44,077 nt of DNA from a virus: IMG/VR virus record IMGVR_UViG_3300031834_000011, positions 1 through 44,077 of that record, one strand, 5' to 3'. A program made the translations under genes and the position numbers. Shown here piece by piece: positions 629 to 43,795 of this stretch; the first letter of the stretch is position 1, and the number at the start of each line of letters is the position of its first letter. The notes under the pieces are model-generated. The model was given only the letters and a program-made list of their open reading frames with translations, did not search any database and had not been told where the DNA came from.

Positions 629-1408
629 TTAATGATTGTCGTTTATGTTCTCCGCAACAAGGCTGTCCCACGAATCAGTTACGTCCTTAGCACCGCCAAG
701 ATCTAGGATATCGCCAAAGTCAATCTTATTGCCATTAGGCATGACCAGCTTAACATCAGTGTAGTCTATTTCTGGATCGGATTCTGGGTCGTCGCGAGTA
801 GCTGGGTAGCCAGCATAAGCGTCATACTTGATAAGCAAAGTTAACTCTGCCGGGTCATCTTCAGAAATAAGGTCAAAGGTACTAGCCTCACGTTCACTAA
901 ATAAGTGAGTTATGTCGGCTTTTACACCATGACCAGAGAACCATACTTTGCCGTTGTCAGACCAAAACTCAGCAAAAGTCTCTATTGACCCAGAGATCTT
1001 GGCCGTAGCAACACGCCCAACCACCTTGGCTTCTGAATTTTCGGACGACCACTCATATTTGGACACATTGCCATGGTCAGACACTTCCCAGACATTAGGA
1101 AAGAAGTTCTTCTTGTCCAAGTAGGCCAGAAGAGCTTTTTCGGCTTCGTCTGTGGATTTAAAAGTGCCTATGTGCTTCATATTGACCGACACGGAGATTT
1201 GGCTGCCCAAGCTCCCGGCTGGCGAAAAGTACGCATCATAATCGTCAGGCTGATCTTCCTCGTTCTCTTCATCTAGGTCTTCTATCTCCTCTTCCTCTTC
1301 GTAAGCCAATACTATGGCATCGGCATCGGCACGTGCTATTTTGCCGTCCTTTATTTTGATGCCAACATTGGTGCAGATTTGGCTGAGTGAGGTCTTTGTT
1401 ACTCGCAT
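629..1408 (-). CDS. Acidic protein of unknown function with N-terminal shared tag module
   Basis: A 259-aa protein that I do not recognise. Residues 1-32 carry a divergent copy of the short module seen in five other proteins of this window (GIKIKDGKIARAD, compare GVSVIDGKIKPSD at 42175). A strongly acidic stretch follows (about residues 37-55, nearly all Glu/Asp), then a body of about 190 residues with alternating beta-like segments. An AAGGAA ribosome-binding site precedes the ATG. It lies 12 bp upstream of the endolysin and shares its strand. The tag assignment here is weaker than for the other copies, because one residue is missing from the spacing. Confidence 0.8.
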   Translation of the reverse strand: MRVTKTSLSQICTNVGIKIKDGKIARADADAIVLAYEEEEEIEDLDEENEEDQPDDYDAYFSPAGSLGSQISVSVNMKHIGTFKSTDEAEKALLAYLDKKNFFPNVWEVSDHGNVSKYEWSSENSEAKVVGRVATAKISGSIETFAEFWSDNGKVWFSGHGVKADITHLFSEREASTFDLISEDDPAELTLLIKYDAYAGYPATRDDPESDPEIDYTDVKLVMPNGNKIDFGDILDLGGAKDVTDSWDSLVAENINDNH

Positions 1409-11374: not shown

Positions 11375-11574
11375 AAGTAGTAAAAGTTGATAACATGCGT
11401 ATTTGGCGCGACCTAAAAGACTTACAATTGGCTGATTTGGCTGACGAGTGGCTGTCGGCCTGCAGTATTGGAACATGTGATGACGGACCAAAAGAGTGTC
11501 AAGACCAGCAAAAGCAAGGCAGAAAAGAAAAAATTCTCGCCTTTCGAGATATTCGAAGAGCTAAAGAACTCTAA
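11371..11574 (+). CDS. Possible small gene overlapping the large terminase start
   Basis: A 67-aa frame starts with GTG at 11371, overlapping the previous stop (GTGA) with AAGAGG upstream, as expected of a coupled gene. The first 35 residues look protein-like (DLKDLQLADLADEWLSAC); the rest overlaps the terminase gene by 95 bp in another frame and looks less natural. It may be a real small protein or only the leader through which terminase translation is coupled. Confidence 0.4.
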   Translation: MKVVKVDNMRIWRDLKDLQLADLADEWLSACSIGTCDDGPKECQDQQKQGRKEKILAFRDIRRAKEL

Positions 11575-14467
11575 CCTTGACCCATCAGTATTTGACAAAG
11601 TTGACGAACGAGACTTTGCCAAAGCACCGAACTTCCTAGACTGGTCTATTGAACCAAAATTTGCCAATACTACCGTGTTGCCTAAGCAGATAGAGATTGG
11701 TGTCAAACTATGCCAGGATTGGTGCCCTAGGTGCTCAAACCCTGGCTACATTAACACCCTGTTCGACCAAACGATAGGTAACATCAAGGACAATATACAA
11801 TTCCTAGTTCACGGCGTTTGCCCCAAGTGCCGTTCAAACCGTATCGAGCTGGCCAACGAGTTTGACATTGAAATCAAAAATGAACTGGTTGGCGCCATGG
11901 GCCAGCGCTGCGTCCCAAAAGACACTCTTGTTTATACTGGTCGTGGCATCATACCAATTGAACAAGTAAAGGTGGGAGACTTGCTTTCCCATGGTGTCGT
12001 GTCAGAAATATTTGACTCCGGCACTCAGGATATGTTGGAAATCAAGACCGAACATGATTGGGCTCTTAGGGGAGCCAAGAACAGCCATATTGTAGCTACT
12101 AAGGTTGGTGACGAAATAGTATACAAACCAATCAAAGAGTTGGTTGTTGGCGACGTTTTGTTGTTAAACTCATGCGGTTTCTGGCCAGAGACTCGTTACA
12201 AATTGCCGCGTTTTGGTATGGCCGGTTTTCCCAGTGAAGTAACAAATGAGTTGGCAAGATTAACTGGTTATCTGGTGTCTGATTGTGCATCTCTTTGTGC
12301 AGAAGTAACCTATGATATTAGACGGTGCAATTTATCAGTTTTTGCGCAGCTGCACCTAACGGAAAATGCTGAATTAATCTGCAAATGGCTGGATTTTATT
12401 GGCCTCGACGTTGCTACTAGGCGCAACAAAATTCCGCAGTACATCATGCAATCTCCAAAAGAGGTACAAGCCGAGTTTTTGGCAGGTTTGTTTGGAGAGG
12501 CAAACAGTGTATACAAGGATACCAACGGTGCAATTAGTCTTAGGTGTATTAGTGCGTCTGAGTTACTTATTAAGCAAGCAAGAATCATATTGCTGAGTTT
12601 CGGAATAGCGGCAAGGTACGCGCAGCTGCCTAGCGGTTACCACATGATTACTACTAGTGACCCGAGTTTTGTTAGCGTATTTGCTTCCTTGGTAAATTTG
12701 GCTGAGAATGATAAGGACAGGCTAATAAAATCAGTTGTCCCAGAGGTGCCCAACACTCAGAGTGACATAACCAGCCAAGGACTTATACCAGCTCCCATTA
12801 CGAGCATTGTCGAGGCTTCAGCAGTTCCAATGATGGACGTTAGTATTCCAGGCAGCAACGTTTACACAGGTGACGGATTCCTGCATCACAATTCTGGCAA
12901 GACGAAGCTAGTAGGTCTCCTGGCCTCGTACATTACCCACAGGTTCCTTAAAGTACCAAACCCGCTGCGGTACTTCGGACAACCAACCGGAGAGCTTCTT
13001 CTTGGTACTTTCTCTGCCTTAACACTGGAGCAGGCGTCGCAAACCCTGTGGGAGTCGTACAAGGGATTTATCAGCGGCTCTCCGTGGTTCTCCCAGTACC
13101 ACAGCTTCCTAAGAAGTGAGGAGAAGCGCCTAGGCGTTGAACTTCTGCACGATCTGAAGAACTCGATTCTGTACACGCACAAGCAGATGCTGTGGCACTG
13201 CACGGGTTCTCAGGACCGGAAGATGCGAGGCAAAACCAGAATCTTCGCGGCGATAGATGAGCTTGGCTGGTTTATTATGGACGATTCCAAACCAGACTTG
13301 CAAAACATGAATGCCGATGCCGTCTATACAGCCCTGTCCAACTCCCTGGCTACCATGAGAATGAAATACCGAATTCTGCTGACCCGTGGCGAATACGACG
13401 CCCCGCCAATCTTGATGGCCAACGTGTCGTCCCCATCGTCAGCCAAAGACAAAATTATGAGGCTGCTTAAGGACGCTAACAAAAATACAAAGATTCTAGC
13501 GGTACAACTGCCTTCTTGGCTATGCAATCCTGACTATACGTACGAAACGCTTAGGGCTGAGTTTAACCACGTCGAAGAGTCAATATTTATGCGGGACTTT
13601 GGTGTAGAGCCACCGTTGGCCCAGAGCCCATTCATGTCTGACGAAATGATGTTGACTCGCATAGCAAAAGGGCCTGTTACCACTGATTACGACACGGTGG
13701 AAATACTTGATGACACTAACAAATTCAAATCGGCACGGTTGCGCATGCATAACGCAAATCGTGGTACACCAAGAATGGTGACCTTTGACCTTGGTACCAC
13801 CAAAAATGGGTTGGCTGCATGCATTTTCAACCTTACTGGTGGGAAGCCGACCTTAGAGTTCGTACTGGCCATAACGCCAAACCCAGCAGCAAAGATCCGT
13901 ATTAACATTGCTGACGTATATGATAACTTTACGGAACCATTGGTAAAGTCTCTAAACGTCAAATATGTGTTCTTTGACCGTTGGCAGTCTCTTGACCAGA
14001 TTGAGAGACTTCGTGCCCTTGGGGTAACAGCCGAAGTGTACTCCTTGTCGTACAAAGACATGGACTCGGTCAGGGGGTACATTAATTCTGAGGCTGTAAC
14101 AATACCAAAACTGCACAAGCCAATCCAGGAAATTATATCAGATTACGTTTCCGACAGTCCTCAATGGCAGAGTAATCCAGTAGGTGCGCTCTGCATCCAG
14201 TTGCTTACGGTTAGGGACAATGGGCACAGGATGATGAAGCCGTTGCAAGGCGATGACGACATCTTCAGAGCTTTCTGTCTAGGAGTGGTGAAGTTGTTCG
14301 ACCCTAGTATCAAGTTGACTATGCAAGGGACCGTTGCAGCCCAAATGGCATCAGCCAGAGCGGTAGGAACAGTTAAGCCAAGAAGTGCCAAAATGGGAGG
14401 CCTTAGTGGCGGCAAAGTTACTGTTGATGGGATAGGTGCTGCCTTTTCTAGGCAGCGTAACCGATGA
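11480..14467 (+). CDS. terL: Terminase large subunit (packaging ATPase/nuclease), intein-interrupted
   Basis: A 995-aa precursor; removing a 328-aa intein leaves a 667-aa TerL. The N-terminal zinc-ribbon-like CPRC...CPKC pairs are at about residues 78 and 115. The spliced Walker A reads GQRSGKT, split by the intein after Arg143. Walker B is IFAAIDELGWF at about residue 600. The RNase-H-like nuclease begins with TFDLGTTKNG at about residue 770, with further Asp/Glu near DGDDD-type residues (QGDDDIFRAF). It pumps DNA into the prohead and cuts concatemers. ATG 11480 was preferred to TTG 11468 and GTG 11477. Portal follows one gene downstream. Confidence 0.92.
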   Translation: MTDQKSVKTSKSKAEKKKFSPFEIFEELKNSNLDPSVFDKVDERDFAKAPNFLDWSIEPKFANTTVLPKQIEIGVKLCQDWCPRCSNPGYINTLFDQTIGNIKDNIQFLVHGVCPKCRSNRIELANEFDIEIKNELVGAMGQRCVPKDTLVYTGRGIIPIEQVKVGDLLSHGVVSEIFDSGTQDMLEIKTEHDWALRGAKNSHIVATKVGDEIVYKPIKELVVGDVLLLNSCGFWPETRYKLPRFGMAGFPSEVTNELARLTGYLVSDCASLCAEVTYDIRRCNLSVFAQLHLTENAELICKWLDFIGLDVATRRNKIPQYIMQSPKEVQAEFLAGLFGEANSVYKDTNGAISLRCISASELLIKQARIILLSFGIAARYAQLPSGYHMITTSDPSFVSVFASLVNLAENDKDRLIKSVVPEVPNTQSDITSQGLIPAPITSIVEASAVPMMDVSIPGSNVYTGDGFLHHNSGKTKLVGLLASYITHRFLKVPNPLRYFGQPTGELLLGTFSALTLEQASQTLWESYKGFISGSPWFSQYHSFLRSEEKRLGVELLHDLKNSILYTHKQMLWHCTGSQDRKMRGKTRIFAAIDELGWFIMDDSKPDLQNMNADAVYTALSNSLATMRMKYRILLTRGEYDAPPILMANVSSPSSAKDKIMRLLKDANKNTKILAVQLPSWLCNPDYTYETLRAEFNHVEESIFMRDFGVEPPLAQSPFMSDEMMLTRIAKGPVTTDYDTVEILDDTNKFKSARLRMHNANRGTPRMVTFDLGTTKNGLAACIFNLTGGKPTLEFVLAITPNPAAKIRINIADVYDNFTEPLVKSLNVKYVFFDRWQSLDQIERLRALGVTAEVYSLSYKDMDSVRGYINSEAVTIPKLHKPIQEIISDYVSDSPQWQSNPVGALCIQLLTVRDNGHRMMKPLQGDDDIFRAFCLGVVKLFDPSIKLTMQGTVAAQMASARAVGTVKPRSAKMGGLSGGKVTVDGIGAAFSRQRNR
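11909..12892 (+). mobile_element. Intein with LAGLIDADG-type homing endonuclease, inserted in the TerL Walker A
   Basis: An in-frame 328-codon insertion runs from Cys1 (CVPKDTLVY) to the terminal His-Asn (LHHN), followed by Ser+1. Splicing block A is C..DT.V, block B carries the NSHIVAT His, and repeated VGD(L/V)L motifs are typical Hint-fold strands. Two LAGLIDADG-like motifs are present: LTGYLVSD at about 12255 and FLAGLFGEAN at about 12470. The usual glycines after the acidic residues are replaced (DC and EA), so nuclease activity may be reduced. All residues needed for splicing are present. Insertion at the P-loop, the most conserved site, is typical of inteins. Confidence 0.92.
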
Positions 14468-31802: not shown

Positions 31803-33137
31803 ATGGCTGGATTAATGGTACAAGCAGCGCGGCCCCAACCTGTTCCGGTGGCTGTTATGAAGAAGTTCATCTTAGATGAACTGTATGGCATTTTCCACGA
31901 TAAGCAAGCTTTTGGTCTAATTAAACGCTATGGCGGTTGGAATAAAGATTTTTCCCCTGAAGACTACGCTGAGTGGTTTACTCGCGAAGAAATTGAGAAC
32001 GAATTAACAGTTGCTGGTGGCATCCAGTGGCGGCACTTCAAAGCTGGGTCCACACCAAAAGCTTTCTATGTATTTTTGTCTAGACAAATAAAACTGAGAA
32101 TACTGGACAAGTCGAAAGACTATGGTTGGTACGCCTTACAAACAAGCTTGCGAGAACGCGATAAATACCTTACTTTTCTAATCGAACCAAACTATGGCGA
32201 GTTGGTAGAATCAATTCCTAAGTATGTTTACCACACAAGCAATTATTACAATCGAGACAAGATTCTCAAAAAGGGTTTCATACCTCAACAGCAAGGGAAG
32301 AAATCAAAACATCTACCACGCGTTTATGTGGCATTGACGGAAAAAGCTGGTACAGACTTTATGAGCTACATGAGTTTGCATGGGATTGATCCCATTGACG
32401 CATATGAACATGGCGATTATAATCCGCAAATTCTTTTCCGGATTGACACAAGCAAGCTGCGGCCAGGAACCAAGTTTTATTATGATGTTGAAGTCCCAAA
32501 TAAAACCGCTGCTTGGACTTACACTCACATCCCGCCGGAGGCCATCACCGTTATTGACGACCGTAGTCCGCCCCCGGAAGAAGAGACAACAGCCAAACTG
32601 CTTAAGGGCGGCGTAAGTGTTGTTAACGGTCGCGTAAGACGGTGTGACCTAGTTAGGGCTGTTAATATAGTTGCCAGTAATACTGACTTATACCACTTCA
32701 CTAGCTACTTGCTTCTGTACCAAATAATGGAAGAAAACAGGCTGAAACCAGGGTTTGATAGAAAATACTTGTCGCTAACCACAAGCTATGGGTACAGAAA
32801 AGGCGTTGTGCGTGGTGGTGATGGCAGGCAGAACGGTGTATACGTGCAAGTGTGCATAGTGTTGGATGGAGATAAGCTAGAAGCTGACTACATTTTGACT
32901 CCTTATGAAGACCCATATTACACTGGAGAAGATGAGGTAAGAGTAGAAGGGTCAATAAGCAGTTTAGATAAGTACATCAAAAAGGTTATGCTGTTTGAGG
33001 ATGATTGGGCCAACTCAGTAGATGGATGCGAGGATCACGACTACATAGTCAAGTATCTTGGCATAGAAGACGCCAATGTAAATGATATGGCTGATTTTGT
33101 TAGATCTAAGCAGGTAGCATGCGAGGTAGTGTTCTGA
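31803..33137 (+). CDS. Double ADP-ribosyltransferase-like protein with internal tag module
   Basis: A 444-aa protein in three parts. Residues about 135-250 resemble an H-Y-E type ADP-ribosyltransferase/KptA fold: YVYHTSNYYNRDKILKKGF, then RVYVAL, ending PPEAITVID. Residues about 262-292 are the tag module found N-terminally elsewhere in this window (GGVSVVNGRVRRCDLVRAVN). Residues about 296-440 are a second similar fold: LYHFTSYLLLYQIMEENRL, then KYLSLTTS, then EVRVEGSISSL. The layout looks like two ancestral genes fused at the tag. No usable internal start exists there. Modification of host targets is the likely role, inferred from fold only. Confidence 0.72.
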   Translation: MAGLMVQAARPQPVPVAVMKKFILDELYGIFHDKQAFGLIKRYGGWNKDFSPEDYAEWFTREEIENELTVAGGIQWRHFKAGSTPKAFYVFLSRQIKLRILDKSKDYGWYALQTSLRERDKYLTFLIEPNYGELVESIPKYVYHTSNYYNRDKILKKGFIPQQQGKKSKHLPRVYVALTEKAGTDFMSYMSLHGIDPIDAYEHGDYNPQILFRIDTSKLRPGTKFYYDVEVPNKTAAWTYTHIPPEAITVIDDRSPPPEEETTAKLLKGGVSVVNGRVRRCDLVRAVNIVASNTDLYHFTSYLLLYQIMEENRLKPGFDRKYLSLTTSYGYRKGVVRGGDGRQNGVYVQVCIVLDGDKLEADYILTPYEDPYYTGEDEVRVEGSISSLDKYIKKVMLFEDDWANSVDGCEDHDYIVKYLGIEDANVNDMADFVRSKQVACEVVF

Positions 33138-34183
33138 TGACCAAGGTTGCTATGGAAAAGACCCGCGACAAGTTGGCCAGTAGTGGCATTAACGTTATTA
33201 ATGGTTGCATTAGGCACAGTGACCTAGTTAAGGCCGTTAATATACTAAGTGACCAGTCCTCCCCGGTCAAAATAGAGCTAGATGGGTTCGTATTGTCTGG
33301 GTATCTTGGTGGTACTGACCACACCTGGAAGCTCACCAAGAGTGGTGAGTTGGCCACCTCAGCGCGAGTCAGGTTTCTGCCAAATTCTGATTTCCCAGCA
33401 TTAAACGATATCATCTCCTTCCCGGAATATCGTGGCCAAGGGCTTGGAAGAAAAGTTCTCGTAGAGTTGATTAAACACTATGGTAAACTCAGGAGTGATG
33501 ACCAAGGCAGAACTAGTGACCGTGCCGCTAAGATGTGGGAGTCACTAGGAGCCAAAAGTCTACTGAATTCTGCCAGAGGCTATGGCAGGTCCCATTACGC
33601 TATGGTTTGGAAAGATAGTAAGCCAGCCAACGCCGTAGCTGTTGTTGCCTCAGCACCTGATGCTATTCCAGATCTTGATTTTAGTGTTATTGGCAAGTGG
33701 TCCGAAGGTTATTCTACTAGTACACGGCTATCTTCCGCAGACATGCAAGAATTAAGGCTGATAGGGAACTGGGCAAAAGGCCTTAACGCATTTAGGACAC
33801 CCAAGATTCTTTATAGAGGAATAAGACTTAGTGATACAAAAGAGGTGTCCATAAATACTGTAAAGGATTTAGTGAAAAACCCTTCTTCCTGGTCTACTAC
33901 AAAAGTAGGTGCTAAGTATTACATAGACGGTGACAAAGGTGTATTTATAGAGTGGGAATCTCCACCAAAGGAAGACATTCTTGTTGATTTTACCAGGTTA
34001 AGGAAGTTGATGATCAATAGCTTCCAAGATGTTTGGAAAAGTTCAACATCGCCTATATCTGAACCAGACATAAACGAATATGTAGCGGAACCAAAATCCT
34101 TCACAGTCGTGGATGTGATTGGTCCGTATGACACCAAAAACCCAAACTATGGTAGGTCTTGGTGGTATGTAAAGATTAAGTAG
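33137..34183 (+). CDS. Tagged GNAT acetyltransferase / ADP-ribosyltransferase fusion
   Basis: A 348-aa protein. The tag module is at about residues 10-38 (SGINVINGCIRHSDLVKAVN). A GNAT domain follows, with FPEYRGQGLGRKVLVELI as the acetyl-CoA-binding motif A (about residue 95) and a C-terminal SHYAMVWK strand. Residues about 195-345 form an R-S-E class ADP-ribosyltransferase: LYRGIRL (Arg), SSWSTTK (Ser-Thr motif), then EYVAEPKSF (Glu motif region). ATG 33137 overlaps the previous stop by one base with GAGGTAG upstream; ATG 33152 is an alternative that aligns better with the other tagged starts. T4 Alt is a functional analogy. Confidence 0.75.
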   Translation: MTKVAMEKTRDKLASSGINVINGCIRHSDLVKAVNILSDQSSPVKIELDGFVLSGYLGGTDHTWKLTKSGELATSARVRFLPNSDFPALNDIISFPEYRGQGLGRKVLVELIKHYGKLRSDDQGRTSDRAAKMWESLGAKSLLNSARGYGRSHYAMVWKDSKPANAVAVVASAPDAIPDLDFSVIGKWSEGYSTSTRLSSADMQELRLIGNWAKGLNAFRTPKILYRGIRLSDTKEVSINTVKDLVKNPSSWSTTKVGAKYYIDGDKGVFIEWESPPKEDILVDFTRLRKLMINSFQDVWKSSTSPISEPDINEYVAEPKSFTVVDVIGPYDTKNPNYGRSWWYVKIK

Positions 34184-41437: not shown

Positions 41438-41677
41438 ATGCTATCAGAAGGATTAGAGGTATTATCAGGCTATTTCACTGCCGACAAGGGTTCAGGAGAA
41501 CTGTTAGTCAAGGACGAATACGCAATTATATTGTGTGGAGAAAGAGTCATTGTGTCTGCTCGTGAGCTGAATGAGTGCGCTTGGAAGCCTAAGAAAGTGT
41601 CGCTTTTTGGTCGCGATCACGGCTCAATACTAGACGATATCGAAGTGTTCAAAAAGATCGAGATAGGCAGTTTATAA
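41438..41677 (+). CDS. Hypothetical protein, 79 aa
   Basis: Unrecognised beta-rich small protein ending KKIEIGSL. Its last 25 bases (41653-41677) recur almost unchanged at 42138-42162 between the next two genes, showing that this gene end was included in a local duplication. Confidence 0.72.
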   Translation: MLSEGLEVLSGYFTADKGSGELLVKDEYAIILCGERVIVSARELNECAWKPKKVSLFGRDHGSILDDIEVFKKIEIGSL

Positions 41678-41686
41678 GGAGGATAT

Positions 41687-41788
41687 ATGAGCGATACAAG
41701 ATCTAAGCTAACCAAGGCTGGCGTATCTGTTATTGGTGGCAAGGTTAAAGCTAGCGATGTCGCTACGGCTGTCAGAGTCTTGGCCGCT
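41687..41788 (+). repeat. Cassette repeat copy 1 (tag-encoding)
   Basis: About 100 bp encoding the tag module is repeated at 42175-42276 and 42946-43047 with high nucleotide identity, for example AAGATCTAAGCTAACCA shared by all three. Identity drops sharply after the module, so the payload coding parts are unrelated. Confidence 0.85.
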
Positions 41789-42088
41789 AGCGACACTATG
41801 ATCGTAACGGTCTATTTTGACGATCACATAAGCGAATCTGAGCACAACAAGGCAGACCTAGTCAGAGTTGTGACAATGTCTGCGGATGACGCTGAGGAAT
41901 ATCTTACTAATCATGGCACTTATGTGCGAGGCGACCAAGATGAGGGCAATGAAGATGAAGAAGATGAAGAAGATGACATGGGCTGGTTACCAAGTGGTGA
42001 TCTAGAATTTTATACTCATGGTTCTCTCCCGAATAATGACTGGTGGGAAACAGAAGGTAAAATAGAATGGACAAAGGCGTTGGCCTAA
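41687..42088 (+). CDS. Tagged protein 1 of the tandem cassette array
   Basis: A 133-aa protein. Residues 1-34 are the shared tag (MSDTRSKLTKAGVSVIGGKV...VATAVRVLAAS). The payload is a beta strand and helix unit (MIVTVYFDDHISES...VVTMSADDAEEYLTNHG), an acidic run of about 17 residues, then WLPSGDLEFYTHG. A perfect AAGGAGG site precedes the ATG. No payload family is recognised. It is followed by two gene-end remnants and then a second tagged gene. Confidence 0.82.
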   Translation: MSDTRSKLTKAGVSVIGGKVKASDVATAVRVLAASDTMIVTVYFDDHISESEHNKADLVRVVTMSADDAEEYLTNHGTYVRGDQDEGNEDEEDEEDDMGWLPSGDLEFYTHGSLPNNDWWETEGKIEWTKALA

Positions 42089-42101
42089 GTTCTTCATAGG
42101 G

Positions 42102-42139
42102 TTAATCAACTCCCCACCACTGCTTAGACAGCGTTTTAA
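42102..42139 (-). pseudogene. Remnant 3' end of the membrane-protein gene at 43454-43795
   Basis: On the minus strand these bases encode KTLSKQWWGVD and a stop, nearly identical to the C-terminus KTLSKKWWGVE of the intact membrane protein. A 31-base core differs at only two positions from 43460-43490. The rest of the gene is absent here, so this is a truncated duplicate. Confidence 0.82.
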
Positions 42140-42162
42140 AGATCGAAATTGGCAGTTTATAA
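42138..42162 (+). repeat. Remnant copy of the 3' end of the gene at 41438-41677
   Basis: AAAGATCGAAATTGGCAGTT and the following TATAA match 41653-41677 with two substitutions. It directly abuts the membrane-gene remnant, marking the junction of a tandem duplication. Confidence 0.8.
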
Positions 42163-42174
42163 CAGAGGGTGTTT

Positions 42175-42276
42175 ATGAGCGATGCAAGATCTAAGCTAAC
42201 CAAGGCCGGTGTATCTGTTATTGATGGCAAGATCAAGCCTAGTGATGTTGATACGGCTGTCAGGGTATTAATCGCC
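42175..42276 (+). repeat. Cassette repeat copy 2 (tag-encoding)
   Basis: Second copy of the tag-encoding DNA repeat. It differs from copies 1 and 3 mostly at third positions and in the variable residues after GKIK. Confidence 0.82.
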
Positions 42277-42885
42277 TCTGATGAGTCTATTGACGCTGGG
42301 CTAAATCAACTGCGAAATGCTGGATACAAGATTTGCAGCGCCTTTTGGACTGGCTCCAGTGATAACGTGTATCTGTCATATATTGCAATCAAGGACCCCA
42401 CTAATTGGAATAGCCACAAGCCTTTTGGAACGGATGGATTATTTGGGCTGTATTACTGTTATGCGGGAGACATCTCAGAATTTCCTAGCAAAAATGGCAC
42501 AACCGACATGAAAGCCCTAGAGAATGGGATTTCTAGGATCGCCAAAAAGCATTCCATTACTGATCTCAAAGCCGAACAGACTGGCGATGGCATAATTAAA
42601 TTTACCTTTAGCGACTCGTCCGGCTTGGGCAGTATCACTTATGATGTTAGGTCTACCGATAGCTGGTCTGACGATGACCACCCTGTCGAAGAGAAAATTA
42701 TTGACGATATAACCAATTTGGCTGATGACTGTTATAGATCGTCGCCTCAGTTTCTTGGTGCCCCAAGTGAGGTGCCTAATAGTGAGGTAATCGGAGATGC
42801 CCAAGACGCACCAAAGCTGTCAGAAAGAATCGAGTCTATACTCAGTGGGAAAGCAGACAACGATGGAGGATTTCGTTCCGAATGA
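42175..42885 (+). CDS. Tagged protein 2 of the tandem cassette array
   Basis: A 236-aa protein with the tag in residues 1-34 (MSDARSKLTKAGVSVIDGKI...). The payload (residues 38-236) has an alpha/beta character with FWTGSSDNVYLSYIAIKDP, LYYCYAGDISEFPS and DDITNLADDCYRSSPQFLGAP, and no recognised family. ATG 42175 (AGAGGG upstream) aligns with the other copies; an in-frame start two codons earlier is less likely. Its upstream leader is the duplicated end of the 41438 gene. Confidence 0.82.
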   Translation: MSDARSKLTKAGVSVIDGKIKPSDVDTAVRVLIASDESIDAGLNQLRNAGYKICSAFWTGSSDNVYLSYIAIKDPTNWNSHKPFGTDGLFGLYYCYAGDISEFPSKNGTTDMKALENGISRIAKKHSITDLKAEQTGDGIIKFTFSDSSGLGSITYDVRSTDSWSDDDHPVEEKIIDDITNLADDCYRSSPQFLGAPSEVPNSEVIGDAQDAPKLSERIESILSGKADNDGGFRSE

Positions 42886-42945
42886 AGCTGAGGATGATAA
42901 ACCTATTACAGGAACAGGATTAATACTGGTTTATGAGGATGATAT

Positions 42946-43047
42946 ATGAGCGATACAAGATCTAAGCTAACCATGGCTGGCGTATCTGTTATTGATGGCA
43001 AGATCAAATCTAGTGAGGTTGCTACGGCTGTCAGGGTCTTGGCCGCC
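42946..43047 (+). repeat. Cassette repeat copy 3 (tag-encoding)
   Basis: Third copy of the tag repeat, including the leader bases GATATATGAGCGATACAAGA shared with copy 1. Confidence 0.83.
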
Positions 43048-43449
43048 GCGCCGCCGAAAGCCGAATGGAAAAGCAGCCCCAGTGGGAAATGGATCAAAAA
43101 TTATGGCGACGGCTGGTATGGTGTAGTACAGGAAACAACGCCGTCTACCGTGATAGAGTATTATGGGAGAAAAGGATTAAAGATTCGAAAATATGTATAC
43201 TACCTAACCAAAAATACTAGACAGCGTGTACCGGATAATAACGGGAATGGGAACATATCAGGTGCTATTACTGAGAAAGCTGCCAGGGATGCTTGTGACC
43301 GTGCCCACGCAGAAAATTACGGAAAGGATATAGAGGATCGCGAGGTTTCTGAGGAAGTGTGTGGTAATTGTGGGTGGGAAGGGGATACTAAAGACTGCCA
43401 TAAAGATGCCCGGCATATCTACTGCCCTGAGTGTGAGCTGTCTCTATAG
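42946..43449 (+). CDS. Tagged protein 3 with C-terminal zinc ribbon
   Basis: A 167-aa protein. Tag in residues 1-35 (MSDTRSKLTMAGVSVIDGKI...). The payload contains WIKNYGDGWYGVVQETTP, a basic middle part and a C-terminal zinc ribbon: CGNCGWEGDTKDCHKDARHIYCPEC, read as CxxC...CxxC with an extra Cys-His. GAGGATG precedes the ATG. It converges on the membrane-protein gene, 4 bp away. No payload family is recognised; the ribbon suggests nucleic-acid or protein binding. Confidence 0.82.
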   Translation: MSDTRSKLTMAGVSVIDGKIKSSEVATAVRVLAAAPPKAEWKSSPSGKWIKNYGDGWYGVVQETTPSTVIEYYGRKGLKIRKYVYYLTKNTRQRVPDNNGNGNISGAITEKAARDACDRAHAENYGKDIEDREVSEEVCGNCGWEGDTKDCHKDARHIYCPECELSL

Positions 43450-43453
43450 TGCT

Positions 43454-43795
43454 CTATTCCACTCCCCACCATTTCTTAGACAGCGTTTTAATATTTTTGG
43501 GTATTGGCTGAGTACCAGGCTCGCTGTCCTCCTTTATTGGGTAGCGAAGCCTTACTCCCTTCTTTTCCAGGCTGCACAGTTTTTGGCGCACATTTTCGTT
43601 CTGCTTCGCTAACAAAGCCGCCTTGGAACATTCAGTAATTAGTAGCTCCTGTTGCTTGACCAGCTCGTTATAAAATACCACCATATTGCCATACTGATAG
43701 TGCCACTCAGCCGACATATAAGCGTTAATGCTACCCCATATCAGGAGCAAAACAATAGTCACAGTTCTGTGGGTAAGTAAGGCGACCTTTTTCAT
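43454..43795 (-). CDS. Single-pass membrane protein with periplasmic coiled part
   Basis: A 113-aa protein: a basic start (MKKVALLTHR), a membrane helix (TVTIVLLLIWGSINAYM), then a helical, charged segment (YNELVKQQELLITECSKAALLAKQNENVRQKL) and a basic tail ending KKWWGVE. The size and layout resemble inner-membrane spanins or other small lysis proteins, but no outer-membrane partner is recognised. GGAGG fits the ATG at 43795. Its 3' end is duplicated as a remnant at 42102-42139. Confidence 0.75.
   Translation of the reverse strand: MKKVALLTHRTVTIVLLLIWGSINAYMSAEWHYQYGNMVVFYNELVKQQELLITECSKAALLAKQNENVRQKLCSLEKKGVRLRYPIKEDSEPGTQPIPKNIKTLSKKWWGVE

Follow-up and report, generated by a model that had tools for sequence, protein, structure and literature searches.

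A conserved leader on unrelated proteins and a preserved duplication junction in a large tailed phage

How did one short leader come to stand in front of several unrelated proteins in a phage genome, and what does it do there? The question arises from the IMG/VR virus record IMGVR_UViG_3300031834_000011, a linear record of 44,077 nucleotides (positions 1-44,077) that was analysed over its whole length and is called the window here. It encodes a terminase with an intein, a portal, a UvsX-like recombinase and a DnaB-like helicase and comes from a large tailed phage. The closest matches of the portal, at about 31%, are from phages of 190-260 kb of Xanthomonas, Erwinia, Rhizobium, Pseudomonas and Dickeya. 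The insert in the large terminase gene (11468-14467) is intein-like and shows a C-terminal ...HHN before SGKT. The terminase of the related phage G004 (portal 58%) has an intein-like insert at the corresponding place, and the terminase of G003 (portal about 54% identical) aligns solely to both sides of the insert.

In three consecutive genes (41,687-43,449) the RBS and the first 34 codons are alike and the remainders differ. We call the common part the leader and the remainder the payload. The locus contains the following features:

41438-41677, plus strand: gene of 79 aa (the 41438 gene); its last 25 nt (41653-41677) form one edge of the duplicated unit
41687-42088, plus strand: tagged gene 1, 133 aa, with the leader at 41687-41791 and a very acidic payload of 98 aa (net -23) behind it
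42102-42139, minus strand: second-copy 3' end of the membrane gene, KTLSKQWWGVD-stop; left half of the duplication junction
42138-42162, plus strand: repeated 3' end of the 41438 gene; right half of the duplication junction, overlapping the membrane-gene scar by 2 nt
42175-42885, plus strand: tagged gene 2, 236 aa; leader 42175-42279, then an unrelated acidic payload
42946-43449, plus strand: tagged gene 3, 167 aa, with the leader at 42946-43050; payload C-terminus zinc-ribbon-like, CxxC...C...CxxC, with the cysteines read directly
43454-43795, minus strand: intact membrane gene, 113 aa, with a single N-terminal hydrophobic stretch

The spacings 3' of tagged genes 1, 2 and 3 are 86, 60 and 4 nt, and no plausible ORF for an immunity gene was found directly downstream of any of them. 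A short overlapping frame after gene 2 (42797-42949, ...EDFVPNEAEDDKPITGTGLILVYEDDI) resembles the acidic tail of a former payload and is possibly the frameshifted end of gene 2.

The leaders of the three cassette genes are identical in 85-92 of 102 bases in each pair (83-90% DNA identity), with a dS of 0.22-0.55 and a dN of 0.07-0.10. The leader is under purifying selection, dN being below dS. When the genes were compared in register, the identity ended sharply at codons 33-35 in every pair and was at background beyond. The payload proteins 1-3, compared in pairs, aligned no better than shuffles (p = 0.93, 0.84 and 0.56), and the payload DNA pairs scored at shuffle level, 17-20 with a null mean of 18-19, whereas DNA that had diverged like the leader (simulated at 17% divergence) should score about 340-700. 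Given the modest leader dS, it is excluded that the payloads merely drifted apart after the duplication, since payload DNA copied in the same event should still align strongly. By these scores, either the payload was exchanged behind the leader or other genes received a copy of the leader at their front, and the sequence fits both alike. An earlier note on this DNA had claimed that the tag DNA is conserved on unrelated payloads, which is borne out at both the DNA and the protein level; of its further claim, replacement behind a constant leader, the unalignable payloads stand, and leader copying onto other genes fits equally.

A repeat search recovered the leader with its RBS in three copies (41670-41787, 42158-42275 and 42929-43046; 78-91% to the reference copy) together with two scars of neighbouring genes, at the places given in the earlier note. 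The 3' end of the membrane gene at 42103-42139 repeats 43455-43491 (89% of 37 nt; KTLSKQWWGVD and KTLSKKWWGVE), and 42138-42162 repeats the 3' end of the 41438 gene at 41653-41677 (92% of 25 nt). The 86-nt gap between genes 1 and 2 thus holds the final 38 nt of the membrane gene followed by the final 25 nt of the 41438 gene, with a 2-nt overlap at 42138-42139. When 42089-42174 was compared with the two parent genes, scores of 25 (membrane gene) and 19 (41438 gene) were obtained; the best of 1000 Markov shuffles reached 13 and 11. The abutting gene ends noted earlier are therefore real. Most simply, both scars would be a single tandem-duplication junction in which a position like 43491 was joined to a position like 41653, since one duplication with breakpoints inside both flanking genes leaves both scars. 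The tandem duplication proposed for the unit is thereby well supported and the separate truncation that accompanied it is not needed. Of the 41438 scar, copy 3 of the leader retains no more than the final few bases, and for this reason it probably arose by a second, shorter duplication. The earlier description of the cassette is kept for its repeats and corrected in that gene 2 starts at the ATG at 42175 and copy 3 is nearly without the 41438 scar. A terminator or promoter was considered as the cause of the conserved scar DNA, and no such site was found there.

The earlier note overlooked that the leader reaches beyond the cassette: further copies lie elsewhere in the window, on a left-hand contig and in G004. 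The features outside the cassette are:

38-616: lysozyme-type endolysin (PHROG 7, E 1.5e-42), adjoining the possible tagged gene 629-1408
629-1408, minus strand: possible tagged gene, MRVTKTSLSQICTNVGIKIKDGKIARADADAIVL..., very acidic; the resemblance is by eye only
31803-33137, plus strand: protein of 444 aa with an internal leader-like domain (32577-32681; leave-one-out E 2.3e-6)
33119-34183, plus strand: diverged tagged gene; leader 33152-33256 (leave-one-out E 2.5e-9), a GNAT-like segment and an ART-like segment (YRG...SSWSTT...E)

The 31803 and 33119 genes are located downstream of tail/spike-like genes. When the record was searched with the leader, the copies in these two genes were found at 32583-32675 and 33152-33250. 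In the 31803 protein the leader sits behind an N-terminal half recognised as ART-like by eye and ahead of a C-terminal half with a weak likeness to KptA, and no ATG start is nearby. A contig that is 99.98% identical to the left end of the window reaches 3.1 kb further and adds two tagged genes near the endolysin (leave-one-out E 2e-9 and 5e-8). Near-identical contigs occur in the IMG/VR samples 3300031997 and 3300031772. In G004, two tagged genes between the portal and the helicase carry the leader on two other unrelated payloads; their leaders were found with E 2e-6 and 6.5e-6 when each was left out, and with 0.0012 and 0.028 from a model without both. In total, about seven supported copies belong to the window phage and another two to G004, with a different payload on each. 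The 629-1408 gene was not recovered in the leave-one-out search and is a possible member at most. In G003, an ORF at about 129888-130364 (L023:15888-16364) starts with a leader-like FKKQRVVAALEELGVRFKDGKANKSDVESIL, which is not significant (E 0.07-0.9). At the left end of the window, the 1420-1938 protein has a SWIM-like C-x-C...C-x-H pattern and a match to an uncharacterised PHROG (E 1e-12).

The leader was absent from all 13 named large phages searched, which had related portals or a weak match to the 31803 protein. Searches of IMG/VR with the leader profile, a leader DNA pattern and the proteins of payloads 2 and 3 found no close relative covering the cassette, and neither did those of phage records and of genome contigs, the latter also made with the portal. 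No relatives of the 31803 and 33119 proteins were found, with only weak matches in phage records (E 0.06 and 0.8). The comparison with related phages that the earlier note had called for was thus met by no close relative, but by the more distant G004 with its two other payloads.

The leader protein comprises about 34 residues with the consensus MxxxxxKLxKxGVxVxxGKVKxSDVxxALxV. It is basic in every copy (net +1 to +8), whereas most payloads are acidic. AlphaFold2, run with a ten-row alignment, predicted helices at 2-10 and 22-36 around an extended loop (pLDDT 82). One of the G004 leaders reached 24.9 bits against Pfam SAP (PF02037; cut-off 23.9) and E 6e-4 in another search, while the leaders of the window itself matched no Pfam family. 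A fold search against the PDB gave no significant match, with a SAP domain at E 4.4; matches to EscJ (E 0.16) were taken as chance for a motif of 40 residues, and a sequence search of the PDB gave nothing convincing. A likeness to SAP is therefore a lead and not an assignment. The leader matched no known targeting signal. A gp21-type cleavage site has the form L/I-x-E, and such a T4-type prohead-protease site is absent at the leader end in the supported window copies, as read from the alignment.

For payloads 1-3, searches of Pfam, PHROG, NCBIfam, phage records and a defence library, and for payloads 2 and 3 also of IMG/VR, gave nothing convincing. No tagged protein matched an internal-protein family or a toxin family in PHROG, Pfam or NCBIfam, and those of the window had no match in the defence-system library. 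The distant copies gave weak signals. In the 33119 protein, the GNAT-like segment has a Pfam E of 0.0027, below the cut-off, and the ART motifs YRG and SSWSTT align to an ART-like ORF of G004 (E 0.005 in a single comparison), below the library cut-offs; a neighbouring untagged G004 ORF matched an RNA-polymerase ADP-ribosylase PHROG (E 0.0076). An AlphaFold2 model of the 33152-34183 protein, made with no alignment, had a pLDDT of 38 and was not used. The 31803 protein matched KptA weakly (E 0.067). A ParB-like signal (E 0.06) came from one left-hand tagged gene, which also has a D-G-x-H-R motif in common with a G004 payload. Taken singly these signals are weak, but as a set they suggest accessory, host-directed proteins. 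Two G004 neighbours, one tagged and one untagged (L014:8926-9408 and L014:9714-10415), have a similar DG-x-(H/A)-R ParB/Srx-like motif at their ends, and a tagged protein left of the window (L012:11409-11795) matched PADLOC JetD weakly (E 1.2e-4).

At the level of sequence, a constrained common leader, unrelated proteins downstream of it, a preserved duplication junction and dispersal in the genome are established. What the leader does may be explained as follows, in a proposal that we hold with evenly divided confidence: the leader would be a common address label that brings accessory anti-host or anti-defence proteins into the virion for ejection with the DNA. The sequence itself shows a basic domain of about 34 residues, SAP-like by prediction, fused to unrelated proteins, and tandem duplication with recombination at the leader boundary that changes the payload behind it. 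The leader would address ART-like, acetyltransferase-like and perhaps ParB-like and acidic proteins to the virion, and the packaged payloads would leave the particle together with the DNA, as with the T4 capsid-targeting leader of Ip1-3. Both the role as an address label and the virion as the address are inferred from three precedents. T4 Ip1-3 have nothing in common but the N-terminal packaging leader, and the GmrSD enzymes that they block differ (PMC12373910), and ten residues of the T4 leader are enough to package foreign proteins (PMC9026906). In PVC, unrelated payloads enter a contractile particle by way of an N-terminal packaging domain that is both required and enough for loading (PMC10097599). 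Packaging of ARTs in myoviruses has been predicted, and ART, GNAT and ParB-like classes are reported for packaged phage effectors (PMC9503650; PMC5512222), the classes to which the weak payload signals here correspond. The constraint on the leader with its sharp end, the unrelated payloads and the dispersed copies downstream of tail/spike-like genes, near the endolysin and, in G004, between portal and helicase also speak for the proposal. Several results count against packaging: the absent L/I-x-E site, the lack of a match to a known targeting signal, the absence of the leader from the 13 named phages, the mostly weak payload assignments and the cassette payloads having no detectable family. 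The internal leader of the 31803 protein also counts against it, being unlike a cleaved N-terminal propeptide.

The main rival, possible though on the doubtful side, is that the leader is a small SAP/HeH-like nucleic-acid-binding domain that anchors diverse effectors, inside the cell, on the DNA or RNA of phage or host, with no packaging. The G004 leader above the Pfam SAP cut-off, basic leaders on mostly acidic payloads and the predicted helix-extended loop-helix all suit such an adapter, and the internal position in the 31803 protein fits a domain better than a cleavable signal. However, the window leaders match no Pfam family and no fold significantly, and mere DNA binding leaves the common leader on many unrelated accessory proteins unexplained. 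Were the leader carried along on the DNA, such an adapter could also bring about packaging. In a more specific form of the address-label reading, which we consider doubtful, a large-phage lineage would have a new SAP-like domain for loading cargo, by which unrelated effectors are fixed to the packaged DNA or the head core; unlike the T4 propeptide it would be folded, retained and also at work inside a chain, and the injected arsenal would change by recombination behind it.

It is improbable that the leader is a 5' module of RBS and start region, spread by recombination and serving expression and a stable start of payloads captured by chance, with no targeting. The RBS does lie inside the repeat and recombination is evident at the locus, but the diverged copies (31803, 33119, left-hand and G004) retain the protein pattern although they have no long DNA repeat in common with the cassette, the internal copy has no start codon close to it, and dN is below dS. 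It is very improbable that the locus is of the polymorphic-toxin type, with which the earlier note compared it; such loci join a constant N-terminal trafficking region to interchangeable C-terminal toxins, accompanied by immunity genes. The locus has the constant leader, swapped C-termini and recombination scars of such systems, but it consists of small proteins with their own starts, no trafficking domain, immunity ORF or toxin-family match was found, and the leader is internal once and also stands on distant ART/GNAT-like and possibly ParB-like payloads; without immunity genes and a trafficking domain the locus is not a polymorphic toxin locus. That the payloads are homologous and diverged fast after duplication can practically be discarded, as no supporting point was found and their DNA and proteins score as shuffled, in contrast to the 83-92% identity that persists in the DNA of leader and scars.

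Should the leader prove to be a loading signal, the injected effectors of this lineage, most of them without known relatives, could be listed from sequence without culturing, and it would be a second independent case beside T4 of injected anti-defence proteins diversifying behind a fixed leader. If its role is no more than that of an adapter binding nucleic acid, the locus is still a record of payload exchange in which the breakpoints are preserved.

Among known systems, SAP/HeH domains share the length and the predicted helix pattern of the leader, and one G004 copy passes the Pfam cut-off; the window copies are below detection and nucleic-acid binding is putative. Among the polyvalent proteins and packaged ARTs of large phages, ART, GNAT and ParB-like domains occur in chains that are believed to be injected (PMC5512222, PMC9503650), but these are large multidomain chains, whereas the window family mostly has one payload per short leader. 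The PVC/eCIS cargo domain likewise is an N-terminal region that loads unrelated payloads, but it is predicted to be disordered and the particle is not a phage. The T4 internal proteins with their capsid-targeting leader are a better analogy than polymorphic toxins and the nearest working model. Ip1-3 (IPI, IPII, IPIII) are small accessory proteins that share only the N-terminal leader and vary among relatives, and the packaged T4 proteins include Alt, an ADP-ribosyltransferase (PMC12373910, PMC9026906). The T4 leader has 10-19 residues and is cleaved by gp21, whereas the window leader has 34 residues, is basic, predicted to be folded, without a gp21-like site and once internal; no homology was detected between the T4 internal proteins and the tagged proteins. 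Because of leader length, cleavage site and homology we do not file the tagged proteins as members of the T4 internal-protein system, but by analogy they may well work like it.
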